In this document: piece after piece, positions 6,540 through 15,302 of the stretch
Layout of the letters: the number at the start of each line of letters is the position of its first letter
Position numbering within the stretch: position 1 is the first letter of the stretch
Source: a bacterium
Lineage (GTDB): Bacteria > Verrucomicrobiota > Verrucomicrobiia > Limisphaerales > UBA8199
Direction of reading: 5' to 3'
Assembly: GCA_021784555.1 (NCBI GenBank)
Contig: JAJYHY010000038.1
Location: 1 to 37,755, forward strand
DNA length: 37,755 nt
The notes under the pieces: generated by a model
The model's database searches: none
What the model saw: only the letters and a program-made list of their open reading frames with translations
Told to the model about the DNA's origin: nothing
Made by a program: the position numbers and the translations under genes

Positions 6540-6663
6540 GTAACTGCTCAGGTGGTGATAGGAGCGCGGACGCCCTCGTCCGCGTCTCGAGAGAGGCGCA
6601 GTCGCGGACGAGGGCGTCCGCGCTCCTATCGCATGACTCAGGCGGCGTGACCCGAGTAGTTAC
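6540..6663. mobile_element. palindromic element A, full-length copy 1 (124 bp)
   Basis: gtaactgctcaggt...acccgagtagttac ends; core arms gataggagcgcggacgccctcgtccgc / gcggacgagggcgtccgcgctcctatc with approx 20-nt loop. Confidence 0.9.
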
Positions 6664-10318: not shown

Positions 10319-11071
10319 TTATCTGAAAAACAGATCGTTGAACCCGAACACGTCGTTCTTGTCGTAGCTCAGATCGTGGTGGTTCCAGGATTCGTAATGA
10401 CCATCGACCATCACCATGTTGGCCAGGAGGTCGTGGCGGCAGGCAGGTTGCTTTTGGGGGACGTAGTTTTTCCAGTCGTGGGTGGTCGGGTTGGGAGGGA
10501 ACGTCACGATTTCGGTCGAATAGCCGCTGAAGGGCACGTTGTCTGGGTTGTAGGGCACGCCAGTGTCGCCCATGAGCCAGACCTGGGCCGGGCGCATGAT
10601 TTGACTGAGTTTGCGGCTGTGGAGCGGACGCGACGAGTTGCCGTCAAAGGCGTAACGGATGATGGTGCTCTCCACCGGCCCGTATCCCTCCCAACGAGCG
10701 CCGAAGATGATCCGGATGTCCTGGTCCCGAACCGCCGGGCAGCGCCAGACGTTGTTCGAAATGCTCTGGGAGACGATGTCGCGATTGGTGGAGAGGGTCT
10801 GCCACCACCATAATCCGCCAGGTGGGACGCCGGTGCCCGTCCACCATTTCGTGTAGAGGTCTGGCAGCCAGTCATTGTTGTCGTCGGCGTAGAGGCGGAA
10901 GGCGACGCCCAGTTGGCGGAGGTTGGAACAGCACTGGATGCGAATGGCCTTGGTTTTGGCGCGGGCAAGGGCAGGCAGCAGCATGCTGGCCAGGATGGCA
11001 ATGATGGCAATAACGACCAGAAGTTCAATTAGAGTAAAGGCACTTCTCGTGACTCGCTGGAAGGCCGCCAT
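10319..11071 (-). CDS. prepilin-type N-terminal cleavage/methylation protein (type II secretion pseudopilin-like)
   Basis: [30 protein letters not shown] prepilin motif; C-terminal [16 protein letters not shown] (H-X9-DG). Confidence 0.92.
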
Positions 11072-11181
11072 ATCTCTGAAGCGAGCCCTGTCTATCTTGC
11101 TGTTCTCATCCACGGTTCCTATTCTTACCTTGCCTGAGGCGAGATCGCCAGATCAAAACGCGCCCTCGGCCATAGGGCGCT

Positions 11182-11317
11182 TAGCTCGACCCGATCCGAA
11201 AAGGTCCGATCGGGTTCACTTTATCGCCCACTTCGTCGGTCACTTAATCGAGAATCAGGCAAATTCGATGAGGTGGCCGATTAAGTCACCCTTTTCGGAT
11301 AGCCTCTAGCTCGACCC
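11182..11317. mobile_element. MITE-like imperfect palindrome flanked by 11-bp direct repeats
   Basis: tagctcgaccc at 11182-11192 and 11307-11317; enclosed inverted ends atccgaaaagg (11194) / cccttttcggat (to 11300). Confidence 0.6.
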
Positions 11318-11342
11318 CGCCCCCCCCCCACTATGACCGTAG

Positions 11343-11384
11343 CGCCGATTGCCAATCGGCTGTATCGCCGGTTGGCAATCGGCG
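11343..11384. repeat. inverted repeat (18-bp arms, 1 mismatch, 6-nt loop)
   Basis: cgccgattgccaatcggc tgtatc gccggttggcaatcggcg. Confidence 0.85.
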
Positions 11385-11388
11385 ATAC

Positions 11389-11456
11389 GTAACTGCTCAG
11401 GTGCTGATCGGAGCGCGGAGGCCCCTCGTCCGCCGCTGCGGCCTTGTGGAGAGGCA
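11389..11456. mobile_element. palindromic element A, half copy (left end plus one core arm)
   Basis: gtaactgctcaggtgctgatcggagcgcggaggcccctcgtccgc; second arm missing. Confidence 0.75.
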
Positions 11457-11544
11457 GACGACAGCGATTTCTCATTTTACGCTCTGGGGAGGACAGAAAA
11501 CGAAAGCGGCGGTCCGCGCCGCACTCCAAACGCTGCGCGAGGTA
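11457..11544 (+). repeat. dispersed repeat family B, copy 1
   Basis: gacagaaaacgaaagcggcggtccgcgccgcactccaaacgctgcgcgaggtac matches reverse complement of 22083..22163. Confidence 0.65.
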
Positions 11545-11776
11545 CGGGTGCGCTGGAGGAAGTCCACGGCGGTGGTGCAGGGGGGGTGGAAACCCCAGTA
11601 TCTTCCCGCAAGTCCTGAGATTAAACTAAAATAGTTGTTAGTCCGTTGGCGACGGTGGCGAGCGCCGGAGCGTGAGGGAGTGGTGACAATGATTTCAGCA
11701 GCCAAGGAGTCCGGGGTGGGAGGCGGCACTCAGCCGCTTCTCGCGCCACTGAGAGGCGGCATAAGGCGTTTTTCCA

Positions 11777-12235
11777 ATGAATACGATAGAAGATCGGGTC
11801 AGAACAAACACGAATCCGGAAATTAACCGGAAGATTGATAGTCAGCTCGAACGGCGCATGCGCTATTTCGCAACGCAGGAGAAACAGGCCATTTCCGAGC
11901 GGATAGCAGAGTTGGACGCCGAGTGGGACCTTGAGCGGGTGCTGGAGGCTAACGCGGCGTCATTAGGGCTATTGGGATTGGTCCTGAGCATTACCTCCAG
12001 CCGTAGATGGCTGGTCGTGCCGCTGGCGGTTTCCGGCTTTCTGCTCCAGCACGCGATTCAAGGGTGGTGTCCGCCCGTCCACGTCTTGCGCCGGTACGGT
12101 GTGCGTACGCGCTTTGAAATCGAGCAGGAACGATACGCCTTGAAAATGCTCCGAGGCGATTTCGAGAAAGTCGGGCCAACCGAAGGGGAACGTCCCCTGG
12201 ATTCGGGGCAATTGATGGCGGGGGTCCGCACTTGA
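11777..12235 (+). CDS. YgaP-like transmembrane (DUF2892-type) protein
   Basis: LGLLGLVLSITSSRRWLVVPLAVSGFLLQHAIQGWCPPVHVLRRYGVRTRFEIEQERYALKMLRGDF. Confidence 0.65.
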   Translation: MNTIEDRVRTNTNPEINRKIDSQLERRMRYFATQEKQAISERIAELDAEWDLERVLEANAASLGLLGLVLSITSSRRWLVVPLAVSGFLLQHAIQGWCPPVHVLRRYGVRTRFEIEQERYALKMLRGDFEKVGPTEGERPLDSGQLMAGVRT

Positions 12236-12242
12236 TTTTGAC

Positions 12243-12333
12243 GTAACTGCGCGGGTGGCGATAGGAGCGCGGACGCCTTCGTCGGCGTCTCGAGGTAGCC
12301 GCAGTGGCGGACGAGGGCGTCCGCGCTCCTATC
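12243..12333. mobile_element. palindromic element A, copy 2 (right end truncated)
   Basis: gtaactgcgcgggtggcgataggagcgcggacgccttcgtcggc...gcggacgagggcgtccgcgctcctatc; right terminal repeat absent. Confidence 0.88.
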
Positions 12334-13885
12334 AGATTCGCTCGAAGTACCGGCTTTTCTCCCAATCCGTGACGGCGTTGTTAAAGGCCTCGATTTCAAG
12401 GCGAGCGTGATGGACATAAAAATCGACCACGTCATCACCAAAAGAGGAGCGCGCCAGGGCCGAGGTGGCGAAGAGGTCGGTCGCGTCGCGCAGGGTTGAG
12501 GGGAGCCGGGGCAGTGTCTTGTCCACATAGGCGTTGCCGAGGTATTCCTCTCCGCAATCCAGTTCTTCAACAACGCCGGCACGTCCGGCTGCCAGCATGG
12601 CCGCAAACGCCAAATACGGGTTGGCGTCAGCGCCGGGCATCCGGTTCTCGATTCGAAACGAGGGGCCTTCACCCACAACGCGAAAGCCGACGGTCCGGTT
12701 GTCCAGCGCCCAAGCCATGCGCGTGGGGGCCCAACTGCCAGGTTGGTACCGTTTGTAGCTGTTGATGGTGGGGGCGTAAAAGAGGCAGAATTCGGGCGAG
12801 TATTTCATCAGGCCGCCCAGGAACTGGCGAAATAGGGTCGAGGGAGCGCCGCGCACGGAGGGACGAGCGGCGTTGTTCTGTTTGGGGACGCCACGAACCG
12901 GTTTGGGAGCCTCTCCATCCCAAAACAGGGGGCGATGTCCTTTCCAAAGGCTGATATGAATGTGGCAGGAGTTACCCGCCTCGCTTGGGGCGTACTTGGC
13001 CATGAAAGAGACGGATTTACCGTGCTGGTCGGCGATTTCCTTGACGCCTTGCTTGAAGAGCAGGTGCATGTCAGCCATGGCCAGGGGATCGGCGCACACG
13101 AAGTTGATTTCATGCTGGCCGCGGCTCCATTCGCCTTTGCTGCTCTCGACCGGGACGCGCGCCGCGGTCATGCCATTGCGAATGGCGCGCATGAGGGGCT
13201 CGTCGCGGGCAGGCTGCATCAGGTGATAATCGATGCGGTAATCGCTGGAGGGCTGCAAATCGCGATAGCCAGCGGCATGGGCGGAGTGGTAAGTCTGGTT
13301 GAAGAGGTAGAACTCCAACTCGCTGGCGCAAAGGCAGGTCATGCCGGCCTTGGCCAGGGCGTCGATTTGGCCGCGCAACACCGAGCGCGGGGCCTCGGCG
13401 ACTAGCGCGCCACCCGGTTGTAACTGCTCAGGTGGTGATAGGAGCGCGGACGCCCTCGTCCGCAAGTGCGGCTTTCCCGAGACGCGGACGAGGGCGTCCG
13501 CGCTCCTATCGCGTGCGTCAGGCGGCTTGACCTGAGCAGTTACGCCCGGCTTTGTGTGGTCGCAGAAGACCAATGCCGTGCCGGGCTGCCAGGGCAGGAT
13601 GCGGAGCGTGGGCAAGTCCGGTTGGAGGGTGAAATCGCCGAAACCCGCCTCCCAACTCGCCACCTTAAAGCCCTCCAACGGGTCCATCTCCATGTTCACC
13701 GTCAGCAAGTAATTGCAGCCGTGGGTGCCGTGCTCGAGGACGGAGTCGATAAAAATCTCCGCGCGAAATCGCTTGCCGACCAACCGGCCAAAGGGGTCCG
13801 GCAGGGCCACAATAACCGTGTCGATGGCTCCGGAGCGGATTTCGCTCCGGAGCGTTTGAAGCGTCAATTCAGGTCTCGGCGACAT
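12332..13885 (-). CDS. glutamine synthetase family protein, ORF carrying an in-frame copy of element A
   Basis: SELEFYLF, SKGEWSRGQHEINF, FMAKYAPSEAGNSCHIHISLW, NSYKRYQPGSWAPTRMAWALDNR, ENRMPGADANPYLAFAAML; insert VKPPDARDRSADALVRVSGKPHLRTRASALLSPPEQL corresponds to 13420..13543. Confidence 0.9.
   Translation of the reverse strand: MSPRPELTLQTLRSEIRSGAIDTVIVALPDPFGRLVGKRFRAEIFIDSVLEHGTHGCNYLLTVNMEMDPLEGFKVASWEAGFGDFTLQPDLPTLRILPWQPGTALVFCDHTKPGVTAQVKPPDARDRSADALVRVSGKPHLRTRASALLSPPEQLQPGGALVAEAPRSVLRGQIDALAKAGMTCLCASELEFYLFNQTYHSAHAAGYRDLQPSSDYRIDYHLMQPARDEPLMRAIRNGMTAARVPVESSKGEWSRGQHEINFVCADPLAMADMHLLFKQGVKEIADQHGKSVSFMAKYAPSEAGNSCHIHISLWKGHRPLFWDGEAPKPVRGVPKQNNAARPSVRGAPSTLFRQFLGGLMKYSPEFCLFYAPTINSYKRYQPGSWAPTRMAWALDNRTVGFRVVGEGPSFRIENRMPGADANPYLAFAAMLAAGRAGVVEELDCGEEYLGNAYVDKTLPRLPSTLRDATDLFATSALARSSFGDDVVDFYVHHARLEIEAFNNAVTDWEKSRYFERI
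13420..13543. mobile_element. palindromic element A, full-length copy 3 (124 bp) inside glutamine synthetase ORF
   Basis: gtaactgctcaggt...acctgagcagttac exact 14-bp inverted ends; core arms near-identical to copy 1. Confidence 0.93.
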
Positions 13886-15302
13886 AAACGTTTTTGAGTT
13901 CGGTATAGCCCTCCATGGCGGCCATGCCCAAGTCGCGCCCAACGCCGCTTTGCTTGAACCCGCCAAACGGGGCCTCCACATGCACGCTGCTGTGCGAGTT
14001 GATGCTCAGGACGCCGCTCTCGACGGCTCGGACTACTCGGAGGGCACGGCGCAGGTCGTTGGTCCAGAGCGAGCCGCTCAAGCCGTAGGACGAAGCGTTG
14101 ACCTCCCGCAACATTTGAGCTTCGTCTTCAAAAGGCCGGATGCACACAACCGGCCCGAAGATTTCCTCCCGCCAACATCGTTCCTCGTTCTTCACGCCCA
14201 GCAGCACGGTGGGCTCGAGATAATAGCCCCGGCTCTGAGGCCGTCCACCGCCGCACACAATTTGGCTCCCATGCCTGCGGGCATCGGTCAGAAACTCTTC
14301 AACCGTGGTCCGCTGTCCGGATGAGACCAGAGGTCCAAGTTGTGTCTCAGGCCGCGCCGGGTCCCCGACGACGAGCGTCTTCGTCGAAGCGACGAAGGCC
14401 TCGACAAACGGCTCGAATATGCCGCGCTCCACGAACACCCGGCTGCGGGCACAGCAGTCCTGACCGGTGTTGGCGAACACGCTCATCGGGGAGGTCGCCG
14501 CCGCGCGCTTCCAGTCACCGTCGGCGAAGATGATGTTGGGCGACTTGCCGCCCAGTTCGAGAGAGACGCGCTTAATGTCCCGTGCGGCTAGTTCCATAAT
14601 CCGGCGGCCCACGTCGGTCGAACCCGTAAAGGACACCTTTCGGATGAGCGGATGGGTTACCAGCGTCTCGCCAATCGCGGCCCCGGAGCCGGGCAGCACC
14701 TGCAGCACGCCCGGCGGCAGGCCGGCGCGGTGCGCGATTTCACCCAGCGCCAGCGCGGTCAGAGGTGAGAGAGAAGCGGGCTTGAGCACCACGCAATTGC
14801 CGGCCGCCAAAGCGGGCGCCGCCTTCCAGCAGGCGATAGGAAACGGGAAATTCCAGGGGACGATGCAGGCCACGACGCCCATTGGCTGGCGCAAGGTAAA
14901 GTCGAACCCACCTCGGGCGATGGGGATGGTTTGCCCATGAAACGCCGTAACCGCCCCCGCGTAGAACTCAAACACGCGGGCGCCGAGTGCCGCTTCATCC
15001 CGCGCGTCGGTAATCGGCTTGCCAATGTGCAGCGTCTCGAGTTGGGCGATTTGCTCTAATTCCTCTCTCAGGAGGCGGGCGACATTGAACAAAACCTCCG
15101 TCCGCTTGCCAGGGGCGAGAGAGCGCCAGCCGCCTTCCCAGGCGCGGTGGGCGGACTGGACGGCGCTGTCGATGTCCTCAATTTGGGCCGCGGAGACCTC
15201 GGCGGACGCTTCTTCGGTGGCGGGGTTGATGAGCGTGGTCTTGCGACCGGACCTGGACTCGTGCCAGGCGCCATCGACAAAGAGTTGGGTGGGAATGGTC
15301 AT
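13869..15302 (-). CDS. NAD-dependent aldehyde dehydrogenase family
   Basis: VACIVPWNFPFPIACWKAAPALAAGNCVVLKPA, SFTGSTDVGRRIM, LELGGKSPNIIFADGD, NTGQDCCARSRVFVE. Confidence 0.95.
   Translation of the reverse strand: MTIPTQLFVDGAWHESRSGRKTTLINPATEEASAEVSAAQIEDIDSAVQSAHRAWEGGWRSLAPGKRTEVLFNVARLLREELEQIAQLETLHIGKPITDARDEAALGARVFEFYAGAVTAFHGQTIPIARGGFDFTLRQPMGVVACIVPWNFPFPIACWKAAPALAAGNCVVLKPASLSPLTALALGEIAHRAGLPPGVLQVLPGSGAAIGETLVTHPLIRKVSFTGSTDVGRRIMELAARDIKRVSLELGGKSPNIIFADGDWKRAAATSPMSVFANTGQDCCARSRVFVERGIFEPFVEAFVASTKTLVVGDPARPETQLGPLVSSGQRTTVEEFLTDARRHGSQIVCGGGRPQSRGYYLEPTVLLGVKNEERCWREEIFGPVVCIRPFEDEAQMLREVNASSYGLSGSLWTNDLRRALRVVRAVESGVLSINSHSSVHVEAPFGGFKQSGVGRDLGMAAMEGYTELKNVYVAET

Follow-up and report, generated by a model that had tools for sequence, protein, structure and literature searches.

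How does a long palindrome come to lie inside a protein gene and leave its reading frame open? The question is raised by a stretch of 37,755 nt (the window) from a bacterium of the Limisphaerales, in which a glutamine synthetase (GS) gene contains a palindromic element of 124 nt. The answer favoured here, to which a probability of about 0.86 is given, is that the element is a non-autonomous IS66-type MITE, moved in trans and tolerated in frame as a linker of 44 residues. The genome to which the window belongs is a draft of 8.82 Mb in 658 contigs, 87% complete, and was considered together with its relatives in the Verrucomicrobia and Limisphaerales.

The insertion in glutamine synthetase

The features of the GS gene and of the element within it are as follows.

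12332 to 13885, minus strand: glutamine synthetase-family gene (PF00120), likely start ATG at 13885; the ORF opens at 13981
13412 to 13419, no strand: left copy of the target-site duplication (TSD), ACCCGGTT, 6/8 match
13420 to 13543, no strand: the 124-nt element, classed as an IS66-type MITE, inside the GS gene
13420 to 13433, plus strand: left terminal inverted repeat (TIR), GTAACTGCTCAGGT
13437 to 13463, no strand: left arm of the hairpin core, 27 nt
13484 to 13510, no strand: right arm of the hairpin core, 27 nt, 100% complementary
13530 to 13543, minus strand: right TIR, reverse complement of the left TIR
13544 to 13551, no strand: right copy of the TSD, GCCCGGCT, 6/8 match

The two TIRs, of 14 bp each, match perfectly. 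Folded as RNA the element has an MFE of −92.7 kcal/mol, where shuffled versions average −45.2 (z −12.3), and 0 of 200 shuffles fold as well; a search of positions 11000–14500 against Rfam gave no match. Only 4 of its 124 positions differ from a consensus of 36 copies, all four in the loop. Despite this near-consensus sequence the TSD of the GS copy matches at only 6 of 8 positions, and it is taken as real on the strength of many other copies, in which the match is 7/8 or 8/8. A six-frame scan of the GS copy finds a single open frame, which is the minus-strand frame of the GS gene. A preliminary description of the window had given the same coordinates, the 14-bp inverted ends and the hairpin, had seen a diverged 8-bp duplication in the flanks and had read the GS frame straight through the element, and on each of these points it was right.

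The insert forms residues 147–190 of the 549-aa GS ORF, between the N-terminal and catalytic domains. All 14 aligned GS orthologues from relatives lack it, the excess here being exactly 44 residues, as the preliminary description had reckoned from 124 + 8 = 132 nt. The comparison for empty sites that it had proposed was carried further with 61 orthologues from GTDB genomes, mostly of Verrucomicrobia and Limisphaerales; all 61 are again free of the insert, with at most 11 loosely aligned residues at the site. It had also suggested a structure prediction, and AlphaFold places residues 147–189 in a disordered loop (pLDDT <50) while recovering the remaining fold (pTM 0.78). The insert is probably translated as a floppy loop, with, we infer, the function of the enzyme retained; ASALLSPPEQLQPGGALVAEAPR is an example of a predicted peptide that would span an insert (GS/UvrA).

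Copies in the window and the genome

The mobile palindrome that had been proposed from the GS copy is indeed multicopy. A DNA search of its own genome yields 40 scored copies with an identity of at least 84%, and a covariance model built from 36 copies recognises about 80 distinct loci, most copies being outside genes. The exact TIR 14-mer occurs 51 times (control hits, 0). Among TIR-paired copies, 13 have flanks matching at 8/8 positions and many more at 7/8. Units of 34, 58, 59, 65, 86, 156 and 371 nt have identical ends and duplications, and since these shorter and longer units share both, the element is defined by its ends. The 124-nt unit is short, multicopy, bordered by TIRs and a TSD and without a transposase, all of which are general properties of MITEs.

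Three further copies lie in the window.

6540 to 6663, plus strand: second full copy, core inverted relative to the GS copy, flanks matching at 5/8
11389 to 11460, plus strand: shortened copy, reduced to the left TIR, the left arm and part of the loop
12243 to 12334, plus strand: degenerate copy with left TIR and core, loop inverted, right end lost; adjoins the 3′ end of the GS gene

The flanks of the second full copy are not readable as one gene. The stop codon of the GS gene, TGA, sits at the junction with the core of the degenerate copy.

The ends and a candidate IS66 partner

The ends of IS66 start GTAAGCG and its insertions produce 8-bp duplications (PMC11946415). The ends of the present element begin GTAA, with GTAACTGCTCAGGT at both, its duplication is also of 8 bp, and an IS66 of a relative, G009, has GTAA ends and a TSD of 8/8. 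The exact TIR 14-mer is found in 13 of 320 genomes of the order; in relatives there are 15 occurrences in G008, 3 in G003 and 1 in G010 (control hits, 0). In G003 the 14-mer and the stop codon of an IS66 TnpC (PF03050) gene overlap, in G259 all 12 of the exact TIRs listed (13 were counted) lie at matches to the C-terminus of TnpC of the G003 type, and the single exact TIR of G142 also lies at a match to that C-terminus. These are right ends; a complete IS66-type element of 2404 bp is present in G002 (L176:53-2456), with the one-base variant GTAACTACTCAGGT as its TIR and a TSD that does not match, and has genes for TnpC (PF03050) and, beside it, a DruA-family protein (PF14236). Because its TIR, GTAA ends and 8-bp TSD match IS66, and the exact TIR ends IS66 transposase genes in relatives, the 124-nt element is, as judged from sequence, an IS66-type MITE carrying a REP-like hairpin, with candidate autonomous relatives in related genomes.

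Neither a full IS66 with TIRs of the GTAACTGCTCAGGT type nor its TnpC was found in the element's own genome, a fragmented draft (87% complete, 658 contigs). Long repeats tend to drop out of fragmented draft assemblies. An IS66 transposase acting in trans is put forward as the candidate mobilising enzyme. The IS66 copies that the draft does contain were rejected as partners, none having GTAACTGCTCAGGT nearby as its own end. C221:2554-4682, considered as a full-length partner, turned out to consist of a 65-nt and a 34-nt derivative, both short and separately flanked by TSDs. MITEAba12 was considered as an IS66-like MITE, and the literature passages found on it give no such link.

The IS66 at C596 of the same draft seems, on reading by eye, to have a DruA-like frame upstream too. 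DruA otherwise takes its name from the Druantia defence system.

The hairpin core

The repeat unit, of 124 nt with GTAA...TTAC ends, is REP-like in its core only, which starts GATAGGAGC; it is not a palindrome of 20–40 bp with GTAG or CGTC at one end, as GTAG/CGTC REPs are. Since the relatives G008 and G010 have different hairpins between identical TIRs, and arms like those of the core occur many times in G009 without TIRs of the GTAACTGCTCAGGT type, the core is most readily understood as a REP-like palindrome that became enclosed by IS66 ends. An exact search of GTDB genome contigs for the composite of TIR and core gave 0 matches in other genomes. Of 70 copies in its own genome, 26 have the loop inverted with respect to the asymmetric tail. 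Such inverted loops occur with each of the three tail subtypes, a pattern suggestive of recurrent flipping of the hairpin core between copies.

A separate palindromic family, with the same TIRs and other cores (GTGGGGCAGACCTCCGGTCTGCC, GTGGGGCGGGCGTCTCGCC), is present in G008 at L132, L135, L137, L147, L151 and L155.

The resemblance of the core to REPs, and the TIR-less arms in G009, could be taken to mean that an HUH (RAYT/Y1) transposase moves the whole as a REP-type palindrome, the TIRs being incidental. There are 18 Y1_Tnp matches in the genome, and REPs have been described inside genes of Opitutus terrae, including both uvrA genes, a ligase and a helicase (PMC3733652). Yet what is repeated in this genome has GTAA TIRs at its borders and an 8-bp duplication, which is the behaviour of DDE-type IS66, and the presence of different cores between identical TIRs in relatives also counts against incidental ends. 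To our knowledge, Y1/RAYT transposition makes no 8-bp target duplication, and movement of this kind is considered unlikely.

Insertions in other genes

If the GS copy is a mobile element tolerated in frame, other such copies would be expected, and they are found, in uvrA, PfkB, helicase, addB and NRPS genes among others. In UvrA the in-frame copy separates the UvrA_inter domain from the UvrA_DNA-bind domain. This apparently intact gene is the sole close uvrA orthologue, the more distant paralogues being at C401. In the PfkB kinase an in-frame copy gives 48 residues vs 4 in ribokinase, exactly 44 extra. The ORF runs through the copy in an NRPS condensation domain, and likewise in genes for an HrpA-like helicase, AddB, an NHL-repeat protein, a TamB protein, and GH42 and GH123 proteins. 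In most in-frame insertions the element is read in the GS frame (VTAQVKPPDARDRSADALVR...). The opposite strand is read in four, none of which contains a stop that is present in that frame in 47 of 70 copies.

The UvrA linker of relatives (L328, L330 and L334, the uvrA genes of G009, G010 and G008) has different, unrelated repeat-like insertions, also in frame. Such sequences may find a general refuge in this linker, which joins the interaction domain of UvrA to the DNA-binding domain and is a possible hot spot for them.

A further possibility is that of a pseudogene, or of an artefact of assembly, at GS, with the in-frame reading due to chance. The assembly is a fragmented draft, and one of the six frames of the element is open anyway; against this, the GS ORF is intact over 549 codons and retains the family-invariant residues, both flanks of the copy score as coding, and in-frame insertions of this kind recur in uvrA, PfkB, helicase and other genes. 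A chance reading of this sort is regarded as very unlikely.

A proposed explanation

On the favoured reading as an IS66-type MITE, the 14-bp ends GTAACTGCTCAGGT would be those of an IS66-family insertion sequence of the host's order, with only a REP-like 27-bp hairpin between them. IS66 transposase supplied in trans would recognise these ends, insert the element and duplicate 8 bp of target. Because 124 + 8 = 132 nt is 44 codons, the reading frame of a gene would survive insertion within it, and since the element is free of stops when read on one strand in one phase, insertions so placed would add a linker of 44 residues, probably disordered. Insertions in genes would usually be purged, with the survivors being mostly those that read the open frame and lie in tolerant loops, such as that of GS.

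How strictly frames are kept

The strength of frame keeping was gauged with a crude test of genic location that leaves the element itself out, namely that both 240-bp flanks be coding and stop-free on one strand. By this test 10 of 78 testable loci look genic, and 7 of the 10 read through without a stop, where 29% is expected, each copy having on average 1.74 of its 6 frames open; the naive P for at least 7 is ~0.009, with small n. The three with coding-like flanks that are not read through (C192:18686, C320:4328 and C399:14661) may be broken genes or gene borders, and because of them frame keeping is not absolute. The other 68 of the 78 loci fail the test. Since bacterial genomes are mostly coding, this fits purging of most genic insertions.

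A more far-reaching possibility is that of a protein-compatible transposon, in which a length of whole codons and a stop-free frame would be kept by selection, with genic copies surviving as extra loops. The GS-type frame is open in 60 of 70 copies irrespective of their location, so that an open frame at GS, taken by itself, says nothing for selection. Similarly, length plus 8 is divisible by 3 in 50 of 70 copies wherever they lie, this being the ancestral length, and for that reason selection for length is not claimed. Such selection is thought rather improbable; if it were real, coding sequence would be a habitat for the element, and UvrA, AddB and the helicase may be altered.

Relation to known elements

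The closest parallel in behaviour is with the Rickettsia palindromic elements (RPE), which are known from conserved protein genes, where they keep the reading frame (Ogata et al. 2000, 2002; PMC10969869, PMC2229807). The preliminary description had looked to RPE for an equivalent in another lineage, and as to behaviour the parallel holds. Both are palindromic repeats of ~100–150 bp in many copies, some in frame in conserved genes where the inserts are tolerated, here with a gain of 132 nt. However, the present element is in another phylum, the transposase indicated by its ends and 8-bp duplication is of IS66 type (the TSD of RPE is listed as unknown in PMC2229807), most of its copies are outside genes and its core inverts between copies. 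That it is a true member of the RPE families, as the similar size, palindromic form and in-frame insertion in conserved protein genes might suggest, is scarcely credible when its host is of a different phylum, its ends link it to the IS66 of its own order and the composite of TIR and core has no exact match in other GTDB genomes, RPE being compared here through published descriptions. The element is distinct from RPE, though seemingly working alike, in having a visible transposition signature and a candidate partner.

With IS66-family insertion sequences and MITEs derived from them it shares GTAA ends, the 8-bp duplication and a TIR identical to that of TnpC-bearing elements of the same order; it differs in having no transposase, in carrying a REP-like hairpin and in occurring in frame in genes. 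The GTAG/CGTC REPs of Opitutus terrae are also palindromes within coding sequences of repair genes of a verrucomicrobium, uvrA again among them, but they are of 20–40 bp and RAYT-linked, in contrast to the 124-bp element with TIRs and a TSD. The enterobacterial ERIC (RU-1) and YPAL (RU-2) are small MITEs with intragenic in-frame copies (PMC2229807), and so similarly able to fuse in frame with host genes; they belong to another lineage, and PMC2229807 reports no link of theirs to IS66 ends.

Significance

In-frame palindromes have been known in Rickettsia since 2000, with neither a TSD nor a named transposase in reviews (PMC10969869, PMC2229807). Comparable behaviour is now seen in a verrucomicrobial lineage with large genomes, where a TSD is present, dozens of relatives have the empty site and an IS66 transposase is the candidate enzyme, and the arithmetic of 124 + 8 = 132 shows why frames survive. 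With this element, verrucomicrobial uvrA genes also have a second, unrelated type of repeat inside them. In the host group, inserts like these are bound to confuse both annotation and alignment, and the origin of protein-embedded repeats becomes testable in the laboratory.
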